In this document: one piece after another, positions 1 through 14,217 of the stretch
How the letters are laid out: every line of letters starts with the position of its first letter
How positions within the stretch are numbered: the stretch's first letter is position 1
Assembly: GCA_902576905.1 (NCBI GenBank)
Contig: CACGWW010000001.1
Location: 247,001-311,000, forward strand
Direction of reading: 5' to 3'
From: an uncultured Alphaproteobacteria bacterium
GTDB taxonomy: Bacteria > Pseudomonadota > Alphaproteobacteria > Rhodobacterales > Rhodobacteraceae
Length of the DNA stretch: 64,000 nucleotides
Notes under the pieces: model-generated
What the model saw: only the letters and a program-made list of their open reading frames with translations
What the model was told of the DNA's origin: nothing
Databases searched by the model: none
Program-made: the position numbers and the translations under genes

Positions 1-794
1 TTATCTGCACTCCCACTGATACACATGTCGATCTTATAAAAAGATTTCTTTATACTAAAAAAGCTGTGTTCTGCGAAAAACCTCTTGATCTAAATTTAAG
101 AAAAGTTAAGAAACTCGTTCAATTAGTTAGCGAATCCAAATCTCAAGTAATGCTCGGGTTTAATAGAAGATTTGACCCTCATTTCGCAAAATTGAAAGCA
201 CATTTAACCAAAAAAGAGATTGGGGTTATTGAGCAAATCACCATAACATCAAGAGACCCAAATCCGCCAACAATTGAATATATTAAACAATCTGGTGGTA
301 TATTTAAAGATATGGCTATCCATGATCTCGATATGGCTGTCTTCTTAGCTGATGAGAAAATACATTCTATCACCGCTTTAGGATCCAATTTTGTAAGCAA
401 AAAAATTGAGCAAGCCGGTGATTACGATACTGCCACTATTTTAATGAGAACCATTTCTGGAAAGCAGATTTCAATAATTAACTCACGAAGGGCGACATAT
501 GGTTATGATCAAAGAGTCGAGGTTCATGGGTCGAAAGGAAGTTTAAAAGTTAACAATCCCACTCTCTCGGAGATAGAACTAGCAAAGGAAGCTGGAACAA
601 CTAAAGATAGGTTGCACCACTTTTTTATGACAAGGTACATAGACGCTTACAAAAATCAAATCGACTACTTTGTTGACTGTATAAAAAAACGGTCAATGCC
701 TAAACCTGACAGTTATGATGGTTATTACGCACTGTACTTAGCCGAAAATGCTCTTAAATCTGCTAAAACAGGTAGAACAGTTTATTTGAGCTGA
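1..794 (+). CDS. iolG: Inositol 2-dehydrogenase, Gfo/Idh/MocA family (5' end outside window)
   Basis: This protein probably oxidises myo-inositol to 2-keto-myo-inositol (scyllo-inosose) with NAD, the first step of inositol breakdown. The ORF track starts at a GTG at 66, but the same frame is open from base 3 and reads ICTPTDTHVDLIKRF ahead of the family motif EKPLD, so the gene simply enters from the left and its Rossmann GxGxxG start is missing. The C-terminal alpha/beta domain shows GFNRRFDPHF, SRDPNPP, HDLDMA and RRATYGYDQRVEVHGSKG, which match inositol 2-dehydrogenases closely. It ends six bases before a convergent second dehydrogenase of the same superfamily and lies beside the inositol operon. 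The family is certain; the inositol assignment is an inference from motifs plus context. Confidence 0.87.
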   Translation, partial: ICTPTDTHVDLIKRFLYTKKAVFCEKPLDLNLRKVKKLVQLVSESKSQVMLGFNRRFDPHFAKLKAHLTKKEIGVIEQITITSRDPNPPTIEYIKQSGGIFKDMAIHDLDMAVFLADEKIHSITALGSNFVSKKIEQAGDYDTATILMRTISGKQISIINSRRATYGYDQRVEVHGSKGSLKVNNPTLSEIELAKEAGTTKDRLHHFFMTRYIDAYKNQIDYFVDCIKKRSMPKPDSYDGYYALYLAENALKSAKTGRTVYLS

Positions 795-800
795 TGTTAA

Positions 801-1925
801 CTAAATCTTAATCCACTTTCCACTAAGTGCTGATCTATCTACAGCGTCCATTACTTTTTCTATTTCATATCCTGATTCAAAATTGGGCCAAGTCTCAGTA
901 TCGTGCTCTATTGCGAACAGGAGCATCTGTAGTTCACACATCTTGACATCCATAAATCCTAAACTGTGACCTCCATTAGGCAGAAAGGATTTATAAAAAG
1001 GATGATCAGGACCCGTTAAAATTGTTCTAAAGCCATCGGTGCTTTTCTTTTTTTGTCGTGTAAATAGTTTGATCTCGTTTAGTCTTTCCTGATCAAATAT
1101 TATGGTGCCCTCGGTTCCATGTACCTCCCATGTAAGTCCACATTTTTTACCCCAAGTAACGCGACTGGCTCCGATATGCCCATGTACCCCATTTTGGAAA
1201 TGAATAAGAGCAGAGATCATGTCATCGTTATCAACGGTCTTAGTTTGTTTTCTATTAGTTGGATCCTTTCTTTTTAGGTGTACAATATTTATATCCCCTA
1301 CTACTTTAGATATTGTCGATCCAACTAAAAAGTGCGCCACGCTTATAACGTGACTCAATATATCTCCATTTGCACCAGTACCAGACGCTTTTCTCGACAT
1401 ACGCCACGACCATGGTCTTTTTTTATCGGCCTCATTATCAACATCATAACGACAGAAAAAACCGGCAACGTCGCCAATGACACCAGTTTCTATTAACTCT
1501 CGTGCATGTAATACTGCTGGATTTTTTGTATAGTTGTAACCAATAATTGTTTTGCCTTTGCTCTTCTTAGATGCTGCAAACATTTTCTTGCTATCGGGGA
1601 GATTACTAGACATAGGTTTTTCACACCACACACTTTTTCCCAACTTTAAAGCTGCAATCGCAATCTCGGCATGCGTGTCGTTCGGTGTGCAAACAGAAAC
1701 TAGTTTTACTTCTGGATCGTTAACGACGTCTTGCCAGCTACTTGTATACCGTGAAAAGCCAAGGTCTGTTGCTCTTTGGCTGGCTCTCTTGGGGCTCAAG
1801 TCACAAACTATCTCTAGTCTTGGCCTCAATCCTGTTCCAAAAACTGAAGCAGATCCACTGTAGGCAACTGAATGGGCTTTCCCCATAAAGCCCGTACCGA
1901 TAACTCCTACACCAATACCTTTCAT
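801..1925 (-). CDS. Gfo/Idh/MocA family oxidoreductase, likely an inositol-isomer or sugar dehydrogenase
   Basis: This is a complete 374-residue NAD(P)-dependent oxidoreductase. The N-terminal Rossmann fold has GVIGTGFMGKAH, followed by VCTPNDTH and the family motif CEKPMSSN. The C-terminal half contains the (G)GDILSHVISVAHFLVG helix with the usual catalytic histidine. It is on the opposite strand to the inositol transporter operon and starts about 200 bases from it, so the two share a divergent control region. It differs clearly from the iolG-type gene to its left, which suggests another isomer (scyllo- or chiro-inositol) or a keto-inositol as substrate. The exact substrate cannot be read from sequence. 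The ATG start is preceded by AGGAGAG on the minus strand. Confidence 0.83.
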   Translation of the reverse strand: MKGIGVGVIGTGFMGKAHSVAYSGSASVFGTGLRPRLEIVCDLSPKRASQRATDLGFSRYTSSWQDVVNDPEVKLVSVCTPNDTHAEIAIAALKLGKSVWCEKPMSSNLPDSKKMFAASKKSKGKTIIGYNYTKNPAVLHARELIETGVIGDVAGFFCRYDVDNEADKKRPWSWRMSRKASGTGANGDILSHVISVAHFLVGSTISKVVGDINIVHLKRKDPTNRKQTKTVDNDDMISALIHFQNGVHGHIGASRVTWGKKCGLTWEVHGTEGTIIFDQERLNEIKLFTRQKKKSTDGFRTILTGPDHPFYKSFLPNGGHSLGFMDVKMCELQMLLFAIEHDTETWPNFESGYEIEKVMDAVDRSALSGKWIKI

Positions 1926-2132
1926 ATGACTCTCCTAAGCAAATGACTAATAATTATTTTTTAGTGCGCTCCAAAAACATTTGTTTCCAATCTTGTGTCA
2001 AAATTTTATTACATTTCTTTTATAAGCACCACTTTTGATATTGATTTTGCGTTAATTTAATATTTAACTGTTCAAGGGACTGGATTCTCCAAGATTCTTG
2101 TCTTGTTAAATATAAATGGAGGAAAATTATTC

Positions 2133-3059
2133 ATGAAAAAATTATTAGTTACATTGATAGCGCTAGTTCTATCAACTGGTGTTTCTTTTGGTGCAGATCA
2201 TAAAGCAAACATAATCGTGGTAACTCACGGATCTGATACAGACGCCTTTTGGGGAGTTGTTAGAAATGGAGTTGAGGCTGCAAAAGCAGACACCGGTGCT
2301 GATGTTCAATACAGAAACCCACCAACTGGAGACTTAAACGAAATGGCATCTTTGATTGAAGCTGCTATTGCTCAGAAGCCAGATGGTATTGTCGTGTCAA
2401 TACCTGCACCAGATATTTTAGGTGGACCAATTAAGGCAGCTGTTGCAGCAGGAATTCCAGTTATATCAATGAATTCTGGAGCCGGCGTTTCAAAAAGCTT
2501 AGGTGCTGTAATGCACGTTGGACAACCTGAATATGAAGCTGGTCTAGGTGGCGGCGAAAAAAGCAAAGGGTTGGGTGGAAAGAACTCAGTTTGCTTTAAC
2601 CACGAGCCAATGAATACAGCTCTTAAAGATAGATGCCAAGGTTTTGCTGACGGTATGGGTGAGAAGCTAAATATGGTTGAGGTTTCATCAGATTTCGATG
2701 ATATCAAAAACACCGTTATCGCACATATGTCTTCCAATCCAGATACAGGAGCTATAATGGCCGTTGGTCCTACTGGTTGTGATCCAACTATAGCTGCTCT
2801 TAAGGAAATGGGTAAAGCTGGAAAAGTCGTTTTAGGTTGTTTTGACCTCGGTCCAGCAATTGTGGATGGAATAATTGACGGTACAGTTAACTACGCCATC
2901 GACCAGCAGCAATTTTTGCAAGGCTATGTACCAGTGGTAGTACTACATCTAAATCATAGAAATGGTACTCTTCCAGGTAATTCAATTAACTCAGGTCCAG
3001 GTTTTGTGACAAAGGGAAATGTTGAATTAGTGAAGAAACTAGCAGGAAAAGAAAGATAA
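2133..3059 (+). CDS. Sugar (probably inositol) ABC transporter periplasmic substrate-binding protein
   Basis: The protein binds a sugar or cyclitol in the periplasm and delivers it to the permease encoded next. The tracked ORF begins at TTG 2103, but ATG 2133 is the likely start: it follows the ribosome site GGAGGAAAA and begins a classical signal peptide (MKKLLVTLIALVLSTGVSFGA). The mature part is a type I periplasmic binding protein of the ribose/inositol class (Peripla_BP_4), with NPPTGDLNEMASLIEAAI near the N-terminus and DQQQFLQGY near the C-terminus. It heads a transporter-plus-iol operon, which supports inositol as ligand. A 12-bp perfect hairpin follows the stop codon and may keep this message more abundant than the downstream genes. 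Confidence 0.87.
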   Translation: MKKLLVTLIALVLSTGVSFGADHKANIIVVTHGSDTDAFWGVVRNGVEAAKADTGADVQYRNPPTGDLNEMASLIEAAIAQKPDGIVVSIPAPDILGGPIKAAVAAGIPVISMNSGAGVSKSLGAVMHVGQPEYEAGLGGGEKSKGLGGKNSVCFNHEPMNTALKDRCQGFADGMGEKLNMVEVSSDFDDIKNTVIAHMSSNPDTGAIMAVGPTGCDPTIAALKEMGKAGKVVLGCFDLGPAIVDGIIDGTVNYAIDQQQFLQGYVPVVVLHLNHRNGTLPGNSINSGPGFVTKGNVELVKKLAGKER

Positions 3060-3087
3060 GAAGTATACCTCTTTCTTATTTATAACG

Positions 3088-3116
3088 GTCTGGCAAATCA
3101 TAGCGATTTGCCAGAC
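3088..3116 (+). terminator. 12-bp perfect hairpin between binding-protein and permease genes
   Basis: GTCTGGCAAATC and GATTTGCCAGAC are exact reverse complements separated by five bases, followed by TTATTTTA. It lies in the gap between the substrate-binding protein and the permease of one operon. Such hairpins usually act as partial terminators or 3' stabilisers that raise the amount of binding protein relative to membrane parts. The role is inferred; the structure is seen directly. Confidence 0.7.
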
Positions 3117-3133
3117 TTATTTTAGGGGGACAA

Positions 3134-4192
3134 ATGGCATCTGATGAACGCATACGAGATATCGGATTAATCAGAAGATCTATATCTAGACCAGAGTTAG
3201 GGTCTGTTTTTGGTTTAATAATAATTGTCATTACTTTTATGACGCTTACCTCAATCAGTGGCACCTTTGGAGCAATGTGGCTAAATCCAATTGGAATCCA
3301 GGCATGGGTTGAGCTAGCAGCGTTTGTGGGCATCTTAGCTATCGGTGCCTCTCTTTTGATGATAGCAGGAGAGTTTGATCTCAGCATGGGAGCAAATATT
3401 GCTTTAGCTGGACATAGCTTTGCCATTTTTCTTTTATTTGGAGTGCCTATTGAGTTGGCGATCATTTTAACCTTTATAGAGCTGGCTTTTTTAGGATTTA
3501 TCATTGGAGTAATTGTTGTTAGAACGGGACTTCCCAGCTTTATCGTAACTCTGGCATTTTGGTTTGCTAGTAGAGGGTTCGCAGTTTTTCTTAGCCAAAC
3601 GTTTTTCAATCAATCTAGATTATCTGTGAAGGCAAATCTAAAACCACCTCCAGGAGGTGGAGAGGATCCTACACTGATTGATAACATTTTCGCATTCGAC
3701 AAGGCTTTTGGGGTTCCCTTCGATGCCGAAGTTTATTACTTTATCATTCTTGTATTCATAGTTGCTTTCATTACCAATCGAACACCATATGGAAATTGGA
3801 TCTATGCGTCTGGAGGTGACCCAGTGGCTGCAAGAGCTGTTGGTGTTCCAGTAGCAAGGGTGAAAATTAGCTTATTTATGATCTCGACCTCTCTTGCCTG
3901 TCTCTTAGGTATTTTAACCGTAATGACATCTGGTGCATCAGATCCCAAAGCAGGAGATTTTCGTGAACTACATGCAATTGCAGCGGCGGTTATTGGCGGC
4001 TGTGCATTAACCGGCGGTTACGGCTCTGTCGTTGGAGCAGTTCTTGGGGCATTAATTTTTGCAATCGCAAGCCGAGGAATAAACTTTGTACCTTTTATCG
4101 ACAATAACCTTTTTAGGGTGATGCTAGGAATGCTAATTTTAGGATCTGCTCTTTTAAACCAATTTTTGAGAGACAGGATAGTGAAAGGCTAA
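3134..4192 (+). CDS. Sugar (probably inositol) ABC transporter permease
   Basis: This 352-residue inner-membrane protein is a BPD_transp_2 (RbsC/FrcB-like) permease. It has about eight to ten hydrophobic segments and the typical motifs GEFDLSMGAN, RTGLPSFIVTLAFW and GGDPVAARAVGV, with GGCALTGGYGSVVGA near the end. It would form the channel for the substrate delivered by the preceding binding protein. The start has AGGGGGAC just upstream. A short insertion rich in proline and glycine (KPPPGGGED) sits in a loop in the middle, as is common in this family. The gene is followed after seven bases by its ATPase. Confidence 0.88.
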   Translation: MASDERIRDIGLIRRSISRPELGSVFGLIIIVITFMTLTSISGTFGAMWLNPIGIQAWVELAAFVGILAIGASLLMIAGEFDLSMGANIALAGHSFAIFLLFGVPIELAIILTFIELAFLGFIIGVIVVRTGLPSFIVTLAFWFASRGFAVFLSQTFFNQSRLSVKANLKPPPGGGEDPTLIDNIFAFDKAFGVPFDAEVYYFIILVFIVAFITNRTPYGNWIYASGGDPVAARAVGVPVARVKISLFMISTSLACLLGILTVMTSGASDPKAGDFRELHAIAAAVIGGCALTGGYGSVVGAVLGALIFAIASRGINFVPFIDNNLFRVMLGMLILGSALLNQFLRDRIVKG

Positions 4193-4199
4193 AGAGACT

Positions 4200-4964
4200 A
4201 TGATCCCATCAATTGAATTTAGGGGTGTATCGAAGTTTTTTGGTAACATAATAGCGCTGAAGGATATATCATTTAAGGTTTTTAAGGGTGAGATAACGGC
4301 TTTATTGGGTGATAATGGTGCAGGTAAATCAACACTAATAAAACTGTTATCTGGGGTCCACATGCCTAGTGAGGGCGAAATACTGCTGAGCGGTGAGCCA
4401 GTGAATTTTAAGTCACCAAGACAGGCTGTGTCTGCTGGTATCGGTACGGTGTATCAGGACTTGGCGTTACAACCTTTGATGAGTGTGACTAGAAATTTCT
4501 TTCTAGGTAGAGAGATTACCAAAGGCTTATTTTTAAATATGCCTCTGATGAATACCATCACAAAAAAGGAAATGGCGAAACTGGGTATTGATGTAGCGGA
4601 CCCAACACAACCGATAGGAACTATGTCAGGTGGTCAAAGACAGACACTAGCGATCGCTAGAGCTATTTATTTTGGAGCCAATGTTCTTATTCTGGATGAG
4701 CCAACTTCGGCCCTCGGACAAAAACAGCAGTTAGAAGTTTTAAGAACTATAAAAAAAGTAAAAGAGTTAGGTGACATAGCGATAATATTCATAACCCATA
4801 ATGATATGCATGCTAAGCTTTTGGGAGATCGTTTTGCTTTTCTGAACAGAGGAAAAGTTTTGGCCGAGGGATCAAGAGACGAAATTGATATGAATAACCT
4901 TAGACCCTTGATGGCAGGTGGTGCAGAGTTAGAGAAACTTGAAACAGAATTCTCTGGAAGATAG
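4200..4964 (+). CDS. Sugar (probably inositol) ABC transporter ATP-binding protein
   Basis: This is a cytoplasmic ATPase of 254 residues that powers the inositol-type transporter. It contains Walker A GDNGAGKST, signature SGGQRQTLAIARA and Walker B VLILDEPTSALG, in the usual order. It is a single-domain protein, like FrcA, whereas RbsA-type sugar ATPases are usually about 500 residues with two domains, so it must act as a homodimer. It lies seven bases after the permease and 51 bases before iolC, clearly in the same transcription unit. No strong ribosome site is visible, which suggests coupling to the permease. Confidence 0.88.
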   Translation: MIPSIEFRGVSKFFGNIIALKDISFKVFKGEITALLGDNGAGKSTLIKLLSGVHMPSEGEILLSGEPVNFKSPRQAVSAGIGTVYQDLALQPLMSVTRNFFLGREITKGLFLNMPLMNTITKKEMAKLGIDVADPTQPIGTMSGGQRQTLAIARAIYFGANVLILDEPTSALGQKQQLEVLRTIKKVKELGDIAIIFITHNDMHAKLLGDRFAFLNRGKVLAEGSRDEIDMNNLRPLMAGGAELEKLETEFSGR

Positions 4965-5015
4965 CAGTGATTTAAAAGGGGAAAACATCAGCTTTTTGAA
5001 AGGCTTAAAAGTAAA

Positions 5016-6923
5016 ATGGTTAATCAAAAAAATGATCTTGATGTAATAACAATTGGACGATCTTCAGTAGATTTATATGGAGGGCAAGTTGGAGGACGAC
5101 TGGAAGACATGACGTCGTTCCAAAAATACATTGGGGGTAGTCCTACTAACATTAGCATCGGAGCATCAAGATTAGGTTTGAGATCTGCAGTCATTACAAG
5201 AGTAGGTGATGAGCATTTCGGGCGATTTATTACTGAGCAATTAACTAGAGAGGGTGTAAACACAGAGGGAATTATTATTGATAAGGAACGTTTGTCCGCT
5301 CTCGCTATTTTAGGAATTCGCGATAAGGAACAATTCCCTCTATTATTTTACCGTGAGAATTGTGCTGATATGGGCCTCACAAAGAATGAAATTGATCCAG
5401 ATTTTATTAAACGCTCAAAATGTGTTGTTGTAACCGGTACCCACTTTAGCTCGAAGCAAGTATCAGAAGCTTCGTTCCAAGCAATTAACTATGCAAAAAG
5501 TAATAATGTGCTTGTTGGGTTTGATATTGATTATCGTCCAAACCTCTGGTCCTTAGGCGGTCATGGTGATGGTGAGAGCAGGTTCGAAGAAAGTAAGGTC
5601 GTAACAAGTCATGTTCAAAAAATCATAAGCCACTGTGATCTTATTGTAGGAACGGAAGAAGAATGGCATATAGCAGGAGGAACTCAAGACACATTAAAAG
5701 CGCTTCGAATCTGTCGTGAACTAACACAAGCTATAATAGTCTGTAAAAGGGGCGCCATGGGGTGCACCGTTTTCCCCGATGCTATAATTAACTGGGATTC
5801 AGGTATTTCTGTAAAAGTTAATAAAATTGAGATATTTAATGTCCTGGGTGCTGGTGATGGCTTTATGGCAGGTTTTTTATATGGTTGGTTAAATGACCAG
5901 TCGTTGGAATTATGTGCGAAGTATGCCAATGCATGTGGTGCTTTAGCAGTCTCTAGACATGGATGTGCACCAGCTTATCCATCTAAAATAGAGTTAGAAC
6001 ACTACCTCAAAAATGGTAGCCAGTACTTTTCTTTAAGACAAGATACATTTCTTGAACAACTGCATTGGAGTACAAATCGAAGAAAGAGTTTTGATAACCT
6101 TTTTACTTTGGCAATAGATCACAGAGTGCAATTTAAAAAGCTGGCAGAGGAAAATGAAAAACAAAAAGAGGATATCGCTGTTTTCAAATCAATGGCATTA
6201 GAGGCCTGTTTGGAGGCGCAAAAAACTGAGCGAGAAAATGTAGGTATCCTTTTAGATGAAGAATATGCAGAAAGCTCTTTGCATGCCGCGTCTGATCATG
6301 ACATATGGATTGGTAGACCAATTGAAAAGGCAGGTGTATTTCCTTTAGAATTAACTGAGGAGCCTGATATAGGATCACGACTGGCAAACTGGCCAGTTAA
6401 TCATTGTGTGAAAGTCTTGGCACCCTTAAGAAATGATGATCCAAAAGACATCTATGAACATCAAGTAAAACTTTTAAGTCGATTAGCGCAAGCGTGTAGG
6501 CTTACTAACCATGAACTATTATTGGAGATTATTACAAAAAGAAATGACAAAGCTAGCTCTCCTGAGCAGATCCTATCTCTTATGCAGGAGTTGTATGAAG
6601 AGAATATTTATCCCGATTGGTGGAAACTAGAGCCTATTGAAAATGTCGAGTTTTGGTCAAAAGCCAATGATATCGTACAGCAGTTTGATCCATATGCCCA
6701 AGGAATAATCGTTTTGGGCATGGATGCGCCCTCAGATAAATTGGCCTCAGTTTTTGATCTATGTAAAAATTATAAACACGTAAAGGGGTTTGCAGTGGGA
6801 CGGTCGATATTTTTTGATACAGCCAGAAAGTGGTTTGGAAATAAAATAACTAATCAACAAGCAAAGGATGAGATGTTTAAAAAATTTACTACGCTTATAA
6901 AGTTATGGAAGAGGAAAAATTAA
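5016..6923 (+). CDS. iolC: Bifunctional 5-dehydro-2-deoxygluconokinase / DUF2090 protein
   Basis: The first about 325 residues are a PfkB-family kinase that phosphorylates 5-dehydro-2-deoxy-D-gluconate: GGSPTNISIGASRLG is the substrate-side motif and LGAGDGFMAGFLYG the catalytic GAGD motif. The remaining about 300 residues are a DUF2090 domain, a TIM-barrel related to class I aldolases that is commonly fused to IolC in alphaproteobacteria and is thought to act in or after the kinase step. The 635-residue length matches such fusions. The gene is followed after two bases by iolD. A second stand-alone PfkB kinase and a class II aldolase lie further down the same operon, so both of these activities may be duplicated. 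Confidence 0.9.
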   Translation: MVNQKNDLDVITIGRSSVDLYGGQVGGRLEDMTSFQKYIGGSPTNISIGASRLGLRSAVITRVGDEHFGRFITEQLTREGVNTEGIIIDKERLSALAILGIRDKEQFPLLFYRENCADMGLTKNEIDPDFIKRSKCVVVTGTHFSSKQVSEASFQAINYAKSNNVLVGFDIDYRPNLWSLGGHGDGESRFEESKVVTSHVQKIISHCDLIVGTEEEWHIAGGTQDTLKALRICRELTQAIIVCKRGAMGCTVFPDAIINWDSGISVKVNKIEIFNVLGAGDGFMAGFLYGWLNDQSLELCAKYANACGALAVSRHGCAPAYPSKIELEHYLKNGSQYFSLRQDTFLEQLHWSTNRRKSFDNLFTLAIDHRVQFKKLAEENEKQKEDIAVFKSMALEACLEAQKTERENVGILLDEEYAESSLHAASDHDIWIGRPIEKAGVFPLELTEEPDIGSRLANWPVNHCVKVLAPLRNDDPKDIYEHQVKLLSRLAQACRLTNHELLLEIITKRNDKASSPEQILSLMQELYEENIYPDWWKLEPIENVEFWSKANDIVQQFDPYAQGIIVLGMDAPSDKLASVFDLCKNYKHVKGFAVGRSIFFDTARKWFGNKITNQQAKDEMFKKFTTLIKLWKRKN

Positions 6924-6925
6924 AA

Positions 6926-8773
6926 ATGAAAACAGTTAAATTAACTGCAGCGCAGGCTCTGGTAAAGTGGATGATTGCCCAGAAGATTGAACAATTTGAT
7001 GGATCGTTTGAAATGGCTTTCAAAGGTGTGTGGGGAATATTTGGTCACGGTAACGTTGCTGGCATAGGTGAGGCTTTAGAAAAGCATAAATCCGAACTTC
7101 CGACTTATAGAGGGCATAACGAGCAAGGCATGGCCCATGCGGCATTAGCATATACAAAAGAGATGCGAAGGAGAAGGTTTATGGCCGTCACATCATCTAT
7201 TGGTCCTGGAGCAACCAACCTAGTAACAGCAGCGGCATTAGCTCACGTTAATAGGCTACCAATTCTTTTACTACCAGGTGATATCTTTGCTGACAGACGC
7301 CCTGACCCAGTACTTCAACAGGTTGAAGATTTTGAGGACGGAACTGTATCTGCTAATGATTGCTTCAGACCGGTCAGCAGATATTTTGATCGAATAACTA
7401 GGCCCGAACAATTACTCAATGCGTTACCAAAAGCCATGTCTATTCTTACTGACCCAGCTATGGCTGGCCCTGTAACTCTTGCGTTTTGTCAAGATGTCCA
7501 AGCCGAAGCCTATAATTATCCAGAATCTTTTTTTGAAATTGTTCACTGGAATGTCAGAAGAATTCAACCAGACCGAAGAGAGATAGAGAGGTTGGCTAAC
7601 TCACTAAAAAAGTCAAAAAAACCTGTAGTAATCGCTGGTGGAGGAGTAAAATATAGCGATGCGCAAAACGAACTAAAGAAATTTTTAGATCTAACTAAAA
7701 TACCACTAGTGGCAACACAAGCTGGAAAATCAGTCTTGGTAGAAAAAGATGAGCAGAACCTCGGATCTATCGGAGTGACAGGTTCTAGTTCAGCCAATGC
7801 AATTATATCAGGTGCAGATCTCGTTATTTCCGTAGGAAGTCGGTTGCAAGATTTTACTACAGGCTCCAACGGACTAATAAAGGCTCCGGTATATTCCATA
7901 AATGTTCAGGCACATGATCTAACTAAACACAAGTCCATACCTGTTCTGGGGGATGCTAAGGAGACACTCCAATTGCTGAGAGCGCAAAGCATAAATTATA
8001 AGGTTAGTGCAGACTATATCGCGCATTATTCTCGAGCAAAGTCGAATTGGACAAAAGACGTAGACAAAGTAACTTCTACTAGTTTAACGAACAGTCTACC
8101 TGCCGACAGTCAAGTAATCGGAGCAGTAAACCGAAGTGTGCCAGAAAACACAATCGTAATAGGCGCGGCAGGGTCAATGCCAGGAGAACTACATAAACTC
8201 TGGAGAGTTTTAGATCAAGATACGTATCATATGGAATATGGGTATTCTTGTATGGGATATGAGGTTTCAGCTGGTATTGGAGTAAATCTCGCTGCACCTA
8301 ATAGACCAAATGTAATTTTTGCAGGCGATGGCTCTTACCTAATGATGAATTCGGAACTCGCTACCGCCGCAATGATGGGCGTTTCAATGACTCTCATCCT
8401 CACAAATAATAGAGGTTATGGTTGTATTAATCGCTTACAAAAAGCTTCTGGGGGGACCGAGTTTAACAATCTGTTTTCAGACTCTAAATTCGAGAATCAG
8501 ATAGAAATTGATTACGTTTCTCATGCAAAATCTATGGGAGCTGAAGCCACTCATGTGTCCGACATAACTGAATTGGAGAGAGAGGTTAAAAGCGCAATTT
8601 CAAAAAAGGGCGTCAATGTTATAGTGATAGATACAGATCCAAATATAAGTACTGAGGAAGGAGGTGCTTGGTGGGATGTGGCCATTCCAGAAACTTTCAT
8701 AGATAATAGCAAATCAGATCTTTCAAAGAAGTATTTAGTGGCTAGAGCAATACAAGACAAAGGATCCAAATAG
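6926..8773 (+). CDS. iolD: 3D-(3,5/4)-trihydroxycyclohexane-1,2-dione hydrolase
   Basis: IolD opens the ring of the trihydroxycyclohexanedione to 5-deoxy-glucuronate using thiamine diphosphate. The protein resembles acetolactate synthases: a pyrimidine-binding domain with YRGHNEQGMAHAA, a middle domain, and a C-terminal domain with the ThDP motif GDGSYLMMN followed by NNRGYG. I start at ATG 6926 instead of tracked ATG 6905 because GAGGAA lies at the right distance and the start then falls just past the iolC stop. The predicted length is 615 residues, normal for IolD. Its stop overlaps the iolB GTG start by one base. Confidence 0.93.
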   Translation: MKTVKLTAAQALVKWMIAQKIEQFDGSFEMAFKGVWGIFGHGNVAGIGEALEKHKSELPTYRGHNEQGMAHAALAYTKEMRRRRFMAVTSSIGPGATNLVTAAALAHVNRLPILLLPGDIFADRRPDPVLQQVEDFEDGTVSANDCFRPVSRYFDRITRPEQLLNALPKAMSILTDPAMAGPVTLAFCQDVQAEAYNYPESFFEIVHWNVRRIQPDRREIERLANSLKKSKKPVVIAGGGVKYSDAQNELKKFLDLTKIPLVATQAGKSVLVEKDEQNLGSIGVTGSSSANAIISGADLVISVGSRLQDFTTGSNGLIKAPVYSINVQAHDLTKHKSIPVLGDAKETLQLLRAQSINYKVSADYIAHYSRAKSNWTKDVDKVTSTSLTNSLPADSQVIGAVNRSVPENTIVIGAAGSMPGELHKLWRVLDQDTYHMEYGYSCMGYEVSAGIGVNLAAPNRPNVIFAGDGSYLMMNSELATAAMMGVSMTLILTNNRGYGCINRLQKASGGTEFNNLFSDSKFENQIEIDYVSHAKSMGAEATHVSDITELEREVKSAISKKGVNVIVIDTDPNISTEEGGAWWDVAIPETFIDNSKSDLSKKYLVARAIQDKGSK

Positions 8774-9573
8774 TGAGCAAGCTCCTAATTAATCCAGATT
8801 TGAAATCTATGAGATTACATAACATCACTCCTTCGAGTGCTGGCTGGAAATATGTTGGATTAGAGGTTTATAAAGCTGTTAAAGGAAATAAGTTCTCTAG
8901 AAATGGTGACTCACGGGAGGTCTGCGTTGTGTTATTAAGTGGAGAAATAAACTTTTTTTTAAATGGAGAAGAAGTTGGGAACTTTAAAGGCAGAAGTTCA
9001 GTTTTTGATAACGAGGCACCTTTTGCGTTTTACTGTCCAGCCAATCATAGCTTTGAAATAAATACACTTACAGATTGTGAGTTTGCTTATTGCACCGCAC
9101 CCGGCTTAACTCAGGATCAGGAATTTCGCGTAATTATACCAGAGAAAATGGAAAAAGAAAAAAGGGGGGAAGGTTCCAACACTAGATATGTTTGCAACAT
9201 ACTTCCAGAAACTGAGCCAGCTGATAGCTTATTAGTAGTTGAGGTTATTACTCCATCAGGAAACTGGTCCTCCTATCCGCCTCACAAACATGATCAGGAC
9301 AATTTACCAACAGAGTCCTATCTTGAAGAAACGTACTATCATAGAATAGATCCTTCGCAAGGATACGTAACCCAACGCGTATACACGGACGATTTGAGTA
9401 TTAATGAATCCATGTCGCCCTCTGATAAAAGTGTCGTACTAGTTCCGGCTGGCTATCATCCAGTTGGTGTCCCACATGGGTATAAAAGTTATTATTTAAA
9501 TGTAATGGCAGGTCCCAAGAGAGTTTGGAAGTTTAAAAACGATCCAAATCATGATTGGATAGTGAATAAATAG
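8773..9573 (+). CDS. iolB: 5-deoxy-glucuronate isomerase
   Basis: IolB converts 5-deoxy-D-glucuronate to 5-dehydro-2-deoxy-D-gluconate, the substrate of IolC. The protein is a bicupin of 266 residues with PPHKHDQD followed by EETYYHR, the metal-binding histidine/glutamate pattern, and GYHPVGVPHGYKSYYLNVMAG near the end. Translation starts at a GTG sharing one base with the iolD stop, so it is probably coupled. This copy looks like a canonical IolB; a second, more divergent copy lies three genes downstream. Confidence 0.92.
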   Translation: MSKLLINPDLKSMRLHNITPSSAGWKYVGLEVYKAVKGNKFSRNGDSREVCVVLLSGEINFFLNGEEVGNFKGRSSVFDNEAPFAFYCPANHSFEINTLTDCEFAYCTAPGLTQDQEFRVIIPEKMEKEKRGEGSNTRYVCNILPETEPADSLLVVEVITPSGNWSSYPPHKHDQDNLPTESYLEETYYHRIDPSQGYVTQRVYTDDLSINESMSPSDKSVVLVPAGYHPVGVPHGYKSYYLNVMAGPKRVWKFKNDPNHDWIVNK

Positions 9574-9599
9574 ATTGTTTTAAAGAAAGTGAGTTGTAT

Positions 9600-10499
9600 A
9601 TGGAGGTAAAGCTTGGTATGTCACCAATCTCATGGACTAATGATGATTTACCTGAACTTGGAGGTGATACGAGTTTAGAAACATGCTTAAAAGAAACACG
9701 ATTGGCTGGATTTTCAGGTACTGAGCTGGGTGGAAAATTTCCAAAGACCCCTTCTAGCCTTAAAGAAGTTTTAGAAGAGCATGAATTAAAGCTTATTTCC
9801 GGTTGGTATTCTGGCACAATGCTAAATAATAATCTAAAAGACGAAAAAATTAAACTAGATGAAACTTTAAATTTATTTGCCGAAGTTGGTGCGAGCGTTT
9901 TAGTTTATGGTGAAACGTTCAATACAGTTCAAAACAAAAAGAATATACCCTTGAATTCGAGGCCGAGATTATCCGAATTTGATATTAAGCAATACGGCCA
10001 AGATTTAGGTGATCTAGCCGATTATTGCTTAGACAAAGGCGTACCATTGACCTTTCATCACCATATGGGTACAGCCGTAGAGACACAAAATGAGATCGAG
10101 CAATTAATGAATAGCACTAGAGACTCAGTTGGTCTTCTTCTAGACACAGGACATCTTCTATTTGCCGACGGTGATTATGATAAAATTATTTCTAATTATG
10201 GGGATAGAATAAATCATATTCATACAAAAGATATTAGAAAGGACGTTTTCAACAATGTGGATAAAAGTAAAGATAGCTTTTTAGACTGTGTATTGGATGG
10301 CGTGTTTACAGTGCCAGGAGATGGTTGCATTGATTATCGAAAATTTATCAAACGGCTTAAAGATATTAGATACAAAGGTTGGATAGTGATTGAAGCAGAG
10401 CAAGATCCTCTGAAAGCCAATCCATTTGAGTACGCAAAAAAGGGTTTCAATACCTTAGTTTCCTACTTAGAAGAATATGATTTTAAGATAGTTTCCTAA
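9600..10499 (+). CDS. iolE: Myo-inosose-2 dehydratase
   Basis: IolE removes water from 2-keto-myo-inositol to give the trihydroxycyclohexanedione used by IolD. The protein is a TIM barrel of the AP-endonuclease-2 / xylose isomerase-like family with N-terminal GMSPISWTNDDLPELGGD, a middle HHHMGT and LLLDTGHLLFADGD, and HIHTKDIRKDV and GDGCIDYR near the C-terminus, which carry the metal ligands. I prefer ATG 9600 to tracked TTG 9594 because AAAGTGAG sits a suitable distance upstream. Length 299 residues is normal. Confidence 0.93.
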   Translation: MEVKLGMSPISWTNDDLPELGGDTSLETCLKETRLAGFSGTELGGKFPKTPSSLKEVLEEHELKLISGWYSGTMLNNNLKDEKIKLDETLNLFAEVGASVLVYGETFNTVQNKKNIPLNSRPRLSEFDIKQYGQDLGDLADYCLDKGVPLTFHHHMGTAVETQNEIEQLMNSTRDSVGLLLDTGHLLFADGDYDKIISNYGDRINHIHTKDIRKDVFNNVDKSKDSFLDCVLDGVFTVPGDGCIDYRKFIKRLKDIRYKGWIVIEAEQDPLKANPFEYAKKGFNTLVSYLEEYDFKIVS

Positions 10500-10504
10500 G
10501 TTTA

Positions 10505-11476
10505 ATGACCATCGAATTACCCATAAAATTAAAACAACGAATGGCAAAGGGTAAATTTGTAATTGTAGGAAGAGCTGGAATGGACCTTTACCCTAAACCA
10601 GCCAATAAACAAACGAGTGAAGCTGGTACATTTATCTCTGATTTGGGGGGATCTGCTGCAAACATTGCTGTTTCTATTTCCAAACTCGGAGGTCGTTCTA
10701 AAATTATAACTGTGGTCTCAGACGATGAAATTGGTGATTTTGTTTGGAAAAAATTAGAAGAGCATAAAGTAGATACCTCACTAGTAACCAAGTCTCAAAA
10801 TAATAATGCTCGTACATCACTTGCAATAGCAGAGATAAGAGAAGAGCCAAAGGTCGTTATCTATCGTAATAATGCCGCTGATCTTTTGATAGATAAACAA
10901 AATATTGATAACTTAAATCTAGAGAATTATGCCGGTATTGTGATCACTGGAACTGCGCTTTCGGATGAACCATCGAGATCGACAATAAACCTACTTATCG
11001 AAAAATCAAAAAATGCAAAATGCCCAGTTATATTCGACGTTGATTACAGAGCAAATGCTTGGACTTCAATATCATTGGCATCCGCTGAACTTCGAGGAGT
11101 TGCAAAAATAGCTGATATGTGTGTTGGCAATAGAGAAGAGTTTGAAATAATGTTTGAACAAACGGATTTACGAAAGGTCAGTGCTAATTTTAAACCAAAC
11201 CAAATAGTGTTATTCAAAAAAGGAGCTGATGGTTGTGACATTATTTTAGATGGTGAAACGGAGTCATATACCGTGTTTAAAGTGAAAGCAAAGAAACCAT
11301 ACGGAGCTGGTGATGCGTTCTTAGGTACAATTCTTCACTCACTCTCAAATGGATTAAGTTTAGAATCAGCTATAAAAAGAGGTAACGCGTCTGCAGCTAT
11401 TGTCGTTTCGAAAGAAGGATGCGCATCGGCAATGCCCAATCTTAACCAGCTAATTGAATTTATCGAGACACATTAG
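10505..11476 (+). CDS. Second PfkB-family sugar kinase, IolC-like, without DUF2090
   Basis: This 323-residue kinase has DLGGSAANIAVSISKLGG near the N-terminus and KPYGAGDAFLGTILHSL near the C-terminus, the two PfkB signatures. It resembles the kinase half of the IolC-DUF2090 protein encoded earlier in this operon but lacks the second domain. It begins the second block of inositol-like genes (kinase, IolB-like, aldolase), all closely spaced. A reasonable inference is that it phosphorylates 5-dehydro-2-deoxygluconate or a close stereoisomer. It starts five bases after iolE. Confidence 0.85.
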   Translation: MTIELPIKLKQRMAKGKFVIVGRAGMDLYPKPANKQTSEAGTFISDLGGSAANIAVSISKLGGRSKIITVVSDDEIGDFVWKKLEEHKVDTSLVTKSQNNNARTSLAIAEIREEPKVVIYRNNAADLLIDKQNIDNLNLENYAGIVITGTALSDEPSRSTINLLIEKSKNAKCPVIFDVDYRANAWTSISLASAELRGVAKIADMCVGNREEFEIMFEQTDLRKVSANFKPNQIVLFKKGADGCDIILDGETESYTVFKVKAKKPYGAGDAFLGTILHSLSNGLSLESAIKRGNASAAIVVSKEGCASAMPNLNQLIEFIETH

Positions 11477-11485
11477 GAGTATAAA

Positions 11486-12325
11486 TTGCACATACCGCCC
11501 CATGACAATGATAATAGACCCATAATTGATATAAACGATGCAAAAGTTCCATACGCTTTTTTCAATAGGGTTACTTTAAATAGAGATGAAGAATTTGTAT
11601 ACGAATTAAAAGAGTATGAGAGCTGCATTGTCCCTGTGACAGGGAGTATTATTGTGAATGTCTATTCTTTGGACGAACGTTTAATAGGTAATCGGATGAA
11701 TAACGTTTGGGACGGAGAGCCTGAGGGGGTATATGTGCCAACGGGTTTAACCGCAAAAATAAAATGTGCCTGTGACCAAGCGGAAATTTTTATTGCGGGA
11801 GCCAAGTATTCAGAGCAATTACGGCCATTCTATATTATGGGAGAAGACGTGGATGTAGTTCAATATGGTTCTGACGACACCAAAACTCATAGAAAAATTA
11901 AACATATCTTAGGACAAAAACAAAATGGAAAAGTTGGTCGCCTATTAGTTTCTGAGCTTTTTACTGTCGGTAAAGGTGGATGGTCAGGGTTTCCACCCCA
12001 CAAACACGATACTGATAGAGATGGTGAAACACACCATGATGAAGTCTACAACTTTAGATTCGATCCTAAGGAAGGATTTGCTCTTCAATTATTGCAAGGA
12101 GAAAATAAAAAGGTTGGAGATGCGCATCATATAGTGGATGGATCAACTTTTGTAATTGATAAGGGGTATCATCCTTGTGTGGTCGCTCCAGGTTATCAGA
12201 TGTACTATTTCACAATTTTAGCCGGTAAATCTCAGAGATCTTTAGTTCAATATTTTCAACCTGAATATAGCTGGCAAGTCGAAACTATACCTGGCATTAA
12301 AGATATGATAGCCAAATTTAAATGA
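11486..12325 (+). CDS. Second IolB-family isomerase (divergent paralogue)
   Basis: This is a second bicupin related to 5-deoxy-glucuronate isomerase. It keeps PPHKHDTDRDGE, DEVYNFRFDPKEGFALQ and DKGYHPCVVAPGYQMYYFTILAG, so the metal site is intact, but it differs strongly from the first IolB elsewhere and is 279 residues long. It starts at TTG 11486 with AGGAG upstream. Its stop overlaps the start of the aldolase gene. Having two iolB-type genes in one operon is unusual and suggests a second substrate, perhaps a uronate from another inositol isomer. The family is clear; the substrate is not. Confidence 0.83.
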   Translation: MHIPPHDNDNRPIIDINDAKVPYAFFNRVTLNRDEEFVYELKEYESCIVPVTGSIIVNVYSLDERLIGNRMNNVWDGEPEGVYVPTGLTAKIKCACDQAEIFIAGAKYSEQLRPFYIMGEDVDVVQYGSDDTKTHRKIKHILGQKQNGKVGRLLVSELFTVGKGGWSGFPPHKHDTDRDGETHHDEVYNFRFDPKEGFALQLLQGENKKVGDAHHIVDGSTFVIDKGYHPCVVAPGYQMYYFTILAGKSQRSLVQYFQPEYSWQVETIPGIKDMIAKFK

Positions 12326-13155
12326 CCTTATCTACACTTAGCCAAGAGCTTCATGTTGCTAGAAGCAAGAGGTACGCACTTGCAGGTTTAGTTATACTGG
12401 GATGGGAAGATGCAAAATATTATGTAAAGGCAGCAGAAGAAATTAACTGCCCAATTATCTTGCAAGTTGGACCAAATTGCCGCGAAAACACTCCTATAGA
12501 AATAATGGGGCCGATGTTAAGAAAACTTGCAGAAGATGCATCAAATAATATCGTAACTCTATTGGACCACTCTACTAATTTAAAAGAGTGCGAAAGAGCT
12601 CTAGATAATGGCTTTTCATCAATTATGTTTGATGGGTCAAACATGGAACTTAATGAAAATATTGACATGACATGCAAAGCCGTGGAGCTTGCAAAAAATT
12701 ATGGAGCATCTGTAGAGGCAGAGCTGGGAGTTGTTGGTTACGATCAAGGGATAAAATCTAAGTTTACTGAACCGAAACTTGCACAAAAATTTTATGCAGC
12801 TACGAAGGTAGATGCTTTAGCAATTTCTGTTGGAAACACTCATCTCGAACAGGAGAAGGCAACAGAAGTCGATACCAAACTAGTCTCTCAAATTGAAAAA
12901 TTTGTAAAGTGCCCACTCGTTATTCATGGCGGGTCCGGTATAAAGACCACCCAACTTCATTGGTTAGCAAAAAATACTGCCATTTGCAAAATTAATATAG
13001 GAACACAATTAAGACAGGTTTTTGGAGAAAATCTGAGGGAATACTTATTAAATAACCCAACTATTTTTGATAGGATTGAAATTCTTTCTCACGTATATGA
13101 GAAGATAATACCTACCACAAAGAAAATAATCTTGAATCTAAGGCCAGATAAATAA
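12322..13155 (+). CDS. iolJ: Class II aldolase, probable 6-phospho-5-dehydro-2-deoxy-D-gluconate aldolase
   Basis: The protein cleaves a phosphorylated keto acid to dihydroxyacetone phosphate and an aldehyde; in inositol breakdown the other product is malonate semialdehyde. It belongs to the zinc-dependent class II fructose-bisphosphate aldolase/KbaY family: LLDHSTN is the metal/catalytic region, FDGSNMELNENI and EAELGVVG follow, then AISVGNTH and LVIHGGSGI with metal-binding histidines. Length is 277 residues. The ATG overlaps the IolB2 stop in ATGA. It ends the operon. Because IolC here already carries DUF2090, this may be a second route for the same cleavage. Confidence 0.85.
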   Translation: MTLSTLSQELHVARSKRYALAGLVILGWEDAKYYVKAAEEINCPIILQVGPNCRENTPIEIMGPMLRKLAEDASNNIVTLLDHSTNLKECERALDNGFSSIMFDGSNMELNENIDMTCKAVELAKNYGASVEAELGVVGYDQGIKSKFTEPKLAQKFYAATKVDALAISVGNTHLEQEKATEVDTKLVSQIEKFVKCPLVIHGGSGIKTTQLHWLAKNTAICKINIGTQLRQVFGENLREYLLNNPTIFDRIEILSHVYEKIIPTTKKIILNLRPDK

Positions 13156-13178: not shown

Positions 13179-14217
13179 TTAATTCAAGATCCTTTCACAG
13201 TCTGTATCTTTGAGTAAGTTAAGTACTTTTGTTTGATGTTTGTCACCAAGACTTCTGAACTCTTCACGAATCCATTTTAAACATTTTACTTGATAGGGAA
13301 ATGTTCTTTGTTCCCACTCACTACCTAAAATTTCTGTACTCCATTTTTCTTCACCACTATTAAAAGCTTCTTCGTTCTTAAGCATAGTTGGGACATATGT
13401 CTTTCCAACTTCACGGAAGATATTTTTAACAGTTTCGGGAAGCTTTGAGTCACTGATCCAATCTTCGCTATCAGGTTCTAATCCAGACAGGTCTTCAGTT
13501 TTTCCTACCCATGCCATAGTCCGCATTGAGTTTTTCTCAATTATAGAGCGAGGTGTGGGATCAAATCCTACCAGCTGGCTTAACTGTCCAAAGAAAGCAA
13601 AATCTGCAGAAGATGGACGGGATCCAAGCAAAAAGGGGAAGTTAATGAAATGGTTCTCCAATATGCTTATAATTTTTTTGAAACATTGGTCTATGAGAGG
13701 CGCTGTTTTTTTGTTCGATCCTACAACCCAAACCCTTCCAAGTTGGCGTTGTGCTATTTTTTCTTTTTTTATGACTAAGTTCCTCGTTTGTAAGTGTGGA
13801 GTTTGCATACAGAGGTAACAGCGTACCCGCATTGTCAATGTCCTTGTCATCATACCATCTGTAATGAAACATAAATTTTGTTCCCCACTCATCACCATAA
13901 TCTTCAAGTAAGTAATTTAAAAACCTCAAAACTGGGTTTGAGGGGATAGTGCTGCGGCTCATGAATTTGCTCTCTAGCTTTCTAATGATAGGGGTTGAGT
14001 CAGTAACTGCCGTAATTTTCTTTTCAGAATTTTCAAATAAGAATGTTGGGTGTAAAACTGGCTTAGGTTTTTCAATATTGTTCCGGTCTAAATATTCGTC
14101 TGGCTCTCCCCAGATAATTTTATACGGGATATGCTTATACCTTAATAAGGCAACCATCTTTCGTGTGTAGGGTGATCCGTTGTTACCAATTAATTTTATG
14201 GGTGCTTTGATGATCAT
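13179..14217 (-). pseudogene. Glutathione S-transferase-like gene split by a one-base frameshift
   Basis: Two overlapping minus-strand ORFs make one gene. The N-terminal part has a thioredoxin-like fold start (LIGNNGSPYTRKMVALLRY) and the C-terminal part is an all-helical GST domain (PFLLGSRPSSADFAFFGQL). The switch falls in the paired runs T6 (13757-13762) and T7 (13764-13770): removing one base from either gives a 345-residue protein passing through KIAQRQLGRVW. AAAGGA upstream supports the ATG at 14217. Both halves look intact, so this is either a recent mutation or an error in the sequence. Substrate unknown. Confidence 0.82.

Follow-up and report, generated by a model that had tools for sequence, protein, structure and literature searches.

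Within the 64,000-nucleotide stretch of DNA analysed here (the window), one operon carries two sets of genes for the last three steps of inositol catabolism, and the second set, a trio of a free kinase (IolC2), a bicupin (IolB2) and a class II aldolase, is probably the roseobacter route to the same products as the first. In the proposed scheme, the ABC transporter, IolG, IolE and IolD would lead from inositol to 5-deoxy-glucuronate. From there, one version would use IolB together with IolC-DUF2090, a kinase fused to a metal-free class I-type aldolase, while the other would use IolC2-IolB2-IolJ with a free, metal-dependent class II aldolase, the set of Phaeobacter inhibens and other roseobacters. 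Both versions would lead through 2-deoxy-5-keto-gluconate and its phosphorylated form to DHAP and malonate semialdehyde, the products of cleavage. A methylmalonate/malonate-semialdehyde dehydrogenase scoring over its cut-off is encoded elsewhere in the same genome, so that the pathway could be completed. A doubling confined to the last three steps is unusual, and it is kept in streamlined genomes with a single clear IolD.

The seven closely spaced genes described by the first-pass annotation are all present on the plus strand, head to tail between 5016 and 13155, with intergenic distances from about -19 to +20 bp in the list of open reading frames (ORFs). Their order is iolC-DUF2090, iolD, iolB, iolE, the PfkB kinase gene iolC2, the bicupin gene iolB2 and the class II aldolase gene. 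The upstream ABC transporter (2103-4964) is counted within the operon, too. It consists of a sugar-binding protein (2103..3059, +; PF13407; NF052284 at 297 bits, cut-off 420) with 47% identity to its homologue in the trio operon of genome G399, which is discussed below, and of a permease (3134..4192, +) and an ATPase (4200..4964, +), both taken from the ORF list and 42% and 53% identical, respectively, to their G399 homologues. Between the binding-protein and permease genes lies a terminator-like hairpin of 13 pairs (3087-3117); hairpins at such sites are frequent where expression of the binding protein is the stronger. The operon is flanked by iolG for inositol 2-dehydrogenase (3..794, +; TIGR04380 at 323.5 bits for a partial protein, since its 5' end lies beyond the window) and by a Gfo/Idh/MocA oxidoreductase gene on the minus strand (801..1925) with a weak likeness to levoglucosan dehydrogenase (NF052479 at 330 bits, cut-off 650). 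Relatives of this oxidoreductase gene adjoin the trio in about 49 loci.

Annotation was based on Pfam and NCBIfam profiles, and paired figures give bits/curated cut-off. The first set begins with iolC-DUF2090 (5016..6923, +), whose product reaches 666 bits against NF047869 (cut-off 600). It is followed by the sole iolD of the operon (6905..8773, +; TIGR04377 839/715), a canonical iolB (8773..9573, +; TIGR04378 324/205), which clusters with Salmonella IolB (2QJV) in the tree, and iolE (9594..10499, +; TIGR04379 395/290). In the DUF2090 domain the catalytic Lys466 and Glu504 are both present, and their spacing matches the published pair (PMC9007349). Thus, the window protein passes the curated cut-off for the bifunctional IolC-DUF2090 enzyme (NF047869; Price et al., 2022) and keeps its catalytic Lys and Glu. 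Such an enzyme usually substitutes for a separate aldolase, whereas the window's operon has a free class II aldolase as well. A degenerate DUF2090 domain rescued by the trio could be ruled out from the presence of this Lys/Glu pair and the low dN/dS.

The kinase of the second set, IolC2 (10505..11476, +; PF00294), is of the IolC type. TIGR04382 (IolC) is its top NCBIfam match, although the score of 287.9 misses the cut-off of 300, which the relative in Ruegeria sp. TM1040 passes (310.5). The nearest solved structure in the PDB is 2QCV, a putative 5-dehydro-2-deoxygluconokinase (E 2e-45), and the IolC motifs GRxGxDLY, YRNNAAD, DYR...W and GAGD are retained. IolB2 (11486..12325, +) is a KduI/IolB bicupin with 244 bits against PF04962 (cut-off 23.9). 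IolB (TIGR04378) is its only NCBIfam match, at 171 bits below the cut-off of 205, and the TM1040 IolB2 scores 154. The cluster of HKHD, Glu and GYHP is retained, and His172, His174, Glu186 and His229 are common to the IolB2 and canonical IolB clades; we take these four residues to be candidate metal ligands, by analogy with cupins generally. The IolJ-type class II aldolase (12322..13155, +; PF01116 at 225 bits) overlaps iolB2 by 4 bases. Its catalytic Asp82 and the metal-site residues His83, Glu134, His174 and His202 are kept in the 21 trio aldolases compared. A role of the trio in sulfoquinovose breakdown (sulfo-EMP or sulfo-EMP2) was ruled out, as its isomerase is a PF04962 bicupin and differs from the FucI-type SqvD (PF02952) and from YihS (PF07221).

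The coexistence of a fused and a free version of the kinase and aldolase, as originally noticed, is therefore real in the sense that two intact, parallel kinase/isomerase/aldolase sets exist under purifying selection. Between sibling genomes, dN/dS is about 0.07-0.31 for both sets, and the values for the trio (about 0.09-0.29) resemble those of the rest of the operon. The same gene order occurs in 11 other single-cell or MAG loci at about 90-100% identity, which, together with the low dN/dS in both sets, argues that the operon is no assembly accident. In the sibling locus L041, dS amounts to 0.24-0.30 in the trio (window 10505-13155) and to only 0.04-0.08 from iolC-DUF2090 to iolE, i.e. the synonymous divergence of the trio is about 4-5 times that of the upstream iol genes. 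This jump suggests recombination between iolE and iolC2 in which the whole trio was swapped as one block.

In phylogenetic trees, a very long branch with full support divides IolB2 from the canonical IolB proteins (including Salmonella 2QJV), each forming a clade of its own, and the IolC2 clade lies apart from the DUF2090-fused kinases as well. The clade comparison proposed by the first-pass annotation hence places both IolB2 and the second PfkB kinase outside the canonical groups, in keeping with the distinctness claimed for them. IolB2 seems to be an IolB that was recruited independently or else diverged long ago. The nearest relatives of the window's IolB2 and IolC2 are found in SAR116.

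What such a set does can be approached through P. inhibens. Price et al. (2022; PMC9007349) report no characterised IolJ-type enzymes beyond those from Bacillus subtilis and P. inhibens (PGA1_c07220); the latter, an IolJ-like aldolase, is tied to myo-inositol by mutant fitness data, and fitness data also indicate that IolC-fused DUF2090 replaces IolJ in nine other bacteria. For this one reaction, DUF2090 and the free IolJ-type aldolase are known alternatives. The published fitness evidence considered here concerns the aldolase PGA1_c07220, not IolB2 or IolC2. Genome G399 shares 98% identity over 1,545 bases with the P. inhibens plasmid pPGA1_262, compared with 73-90% for other genomes of its genus, and from this one 1.5-kb plasmid stretch we identify it as putative P. 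inhibens. G399 encodes one IolB homologue, which is of the IolB2 type, no DUF2090, and one class II aldolase, which adjoins IolB2 in an operon of the TM1040 layout; IolC2 and the aldolase of the window are 39% and 45% identical to their G399 counterparts. If G399 is P. inhibens, then PGA1_c07220 must be the trio aldolase, because the genome has no second class II aldolase, and by the same tight argument from gene content IolB2 alone would be left as a candidate for the isomerisation in myo-inositol breakdown by this species. Activity of the window's aldolase on 2-deoxy-5-keto-gluconate 6-phosphate is predicted from the phenotype of PGA1_c07220 (PMC9007349) and from the sole class II aldolase of G399. 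Most likely the trio represents a roseobacter-type IolC/IolB/IolJ, and we infer that the window's copy retains the P. inhibens function and that the two sets overlap in substrate. We found no paper on PGA1 locus tags other than c07220 and nothing relevant on roseobacters or SAR116 with two inositol routes; a SAR116 study mentions inositol only among osmolytes.

A scan of public genomes for close relatives of IolB2 gave 80 loci, and 79 sequences (78 loci and the window) were analysed. IolB2 is present in 78 of them, IolC2 in 76 and the aldolase in 74, nearly always adjacent. The trio occurs in marine Rhodobacteraceae, SAR116, Kiloniellaceae and Granulosicoccus, with the usual order iolD-iolC2-iolB2-aldolase; in most loci it lies directly 3' of an IolD homologue and often 5' of iolG. 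In the commonest setting of the Roseobacter group, for example in Ruegeria TM1040, a transporter and a LacI regulator are followed by a pair of Gfo/Idh genes and a TIM barrel resembling IolE on one strand, and by iolD-iolC2-iolB2-aldolase-iolG on the other. At the TM1040 locus IolD (802/715), IolC (310/300) and IolG (431/355) all score over their cut-offs, and the TIM barrel (174/290) is a divergent IolE. The TM1040-type operon is thus an entire pathway for inositol, with an IolB type of its own.

This roseobacter-type iol operon (the PGA1_c07220 region of P. inhibens and the megaplasmid of Ruegeria sp. TM1040) is the known system closest to the window, with the same contiguous iolC2-iolB2-class II aldolase genes, a related ABC transporter, IolD and IolG, and an IolB2 that is 62-63% identical to that of the window. 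It differs in that its trio follows its own iolD, accompanied by a divergent IolE-like gene and two divergently oriented Gfo/Idh genes, whereas the window's trio stands 3' of a complete iolC-DUF2090-iolD-iolB-iolE set and G399 lacks DUF2090. The trio is predicted to carry out the same three reactions as the IolB/IolC/IolJ system of B. subtilis, and both have a free kinase and a class II aldolase, but IolB2 falls outside the canonical IolB clade, in an alignment that represented canonical IolB by sequences other than those of B. subtilis.

Besides the window clade, two other lineages (L043 and L057) were found to combine iolC-DUF2090, iolD, iolB, iolE and the trio in a single operon. Doubling of the last three steps is nevertheless common, usually in separate loci. 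Among 150 genomes sampled from the family, with essentially a single one for each genus, IolB2 occurs in 49; of these, 14 lack both canonical IolB and DUF2090, and 22 have all three. With kinship between genera ignored, genomes with IolB2 carry canonical IolB (odds ratio 5.9, p 1.5e-6) and DUF2090 (odds ratio 2.4, p 0.017) more often than the others do. DUF2090 was also present in 8/8 trio genomes reached via SAR116, Granulosicoccus and other loci, seven of which have a single IolD over the cut-off. The positive co-occurrence rules out that the two sets are mutually exclusive alternatives. It also counts against our preferred explanation, because loss of one set would be expected in streamlined genomes if the sets were interchangeable.

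The same association is among the points for a different reading, which we regard as unlikely, namely that the trio serves another stereoisomer or derivative, with tolerant IolG, IolE and IolD shared between the routes and yielding an epimeric 5-deoxy-hexuronate for IolB2, IolC2 and the class II aldolase. Only three steps would need doubling, because cleavage removes the stereocentres, and it is exactly these stereospecific last steps that are doubled; moreover, all eight further genomes tested combine DUF2090 with the trio, seven with a single IolD over the cut-off, and IolB2 and IolB co-occur above chance. The best hint of another cyclitol comes from PhyH proteins, which adjoin the trio in 16/86 loci, as if a substituted inositol were trimmed first; the window's operon, however, contains no PhyH. 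The active-site motifs are common to the trio and the canonical enzymes, and the trio is the sole set in G399, identified as P. inhibens, whose aldolase is a myo-inositol gene (PMC9007349). This last point also speaks against the undescribed pathway or other substrate that the first-pass annotation had suspected. A narrower form, confined to lineages with both sets (the window clade, SAR116 and some Granulosicoccus), would make the trio a dedicated tail for a second cyclitol, sharing IolG, IolE and IolD with the myo-inositol route; we rate it as slightly less probable still. Examples of such a second cyclitol would be a further stereoisomer of inositol or an O-methyl inositol that a neighbouring PhyH opens.

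Two further explanations appear very improbable. The trio could be a hexuronate pathway of isomerase, kinase and aldolase that is unrelated to inositol and stands in the operon by chance, as the nearest outgroup of IolB2 consists of rhizobial proteins outside inositol operons, one of which adjoins mannonate dehydratase in Phyllobacterium. Yet the trio mostly follows an IolD homologue directly, often before iolG, and its kinase is of the IolC type rather than a KDG kinase. Equally improbable is a leftover of lateral transfer without a lasting role, for which the SAR116 affinity of IolB2 and IolC2 and the absence of DUF2090 and the trio aldolase from G173, of the same genus as the window genome, could be cited; here the purifying selection on the trio, like that on the rest of the operon, and the arrangement kept in three lineages point the other way. 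Overlap of the two sets, i.e. a joining of the IolB/IolC-DUF2090 route with the roseobacter route, both of them known, is the simplest explanation of the doubling.

IolB2 forms a large separate IolB clade that is missed by the curated model and is apparently the sole IolB of a P. inhibens-type genome, which affects the annotation of inositol use in marine bacteria. Furthermore, the three-step doubling in streamlined genomes raises the testable question of whether it reflects cyclitol diversity in seawater or the use of metal-free versus metal-dependent aldolases.

Several smaller observations can be added. The PhyH proteins beside the trio belong to at least three subfamilies of phytanoyl-CoA dioxygenase-like Fe/2OG oxygenases (PF05721), occupy varied positions (e.g. 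L049:7187-8014 in SAR116, L102:8175-9011 in Yoonia, L054:4284-5195 and L117:13676-14863), and are possibly demethylases or hydroxylases of substituted cyclitols. The genes of the rhizobial sister group of IolB2 (L115:3510-5325, L114:11947-12780) have a mannonate dehydratase gene as neighbour or belong to an ABC operon of the oligopeptide type that includes a glycosyl hydrolase; the group may represent a uronate isomerase not yet recognised within the KduI/IolB family. In G173 the sole class II aldolase matches the second one of the window genome (contig 2), not that of the trio, so that presence of the operon varies within the genus. Finally, the minus strand at 13179-14217 shows two overlapping ORFs in different frames where siblings have a single ORF of 345 aa (e.g. 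L035:11694-12731), which indicates that this gene is frameshifted or misassembled in the window.
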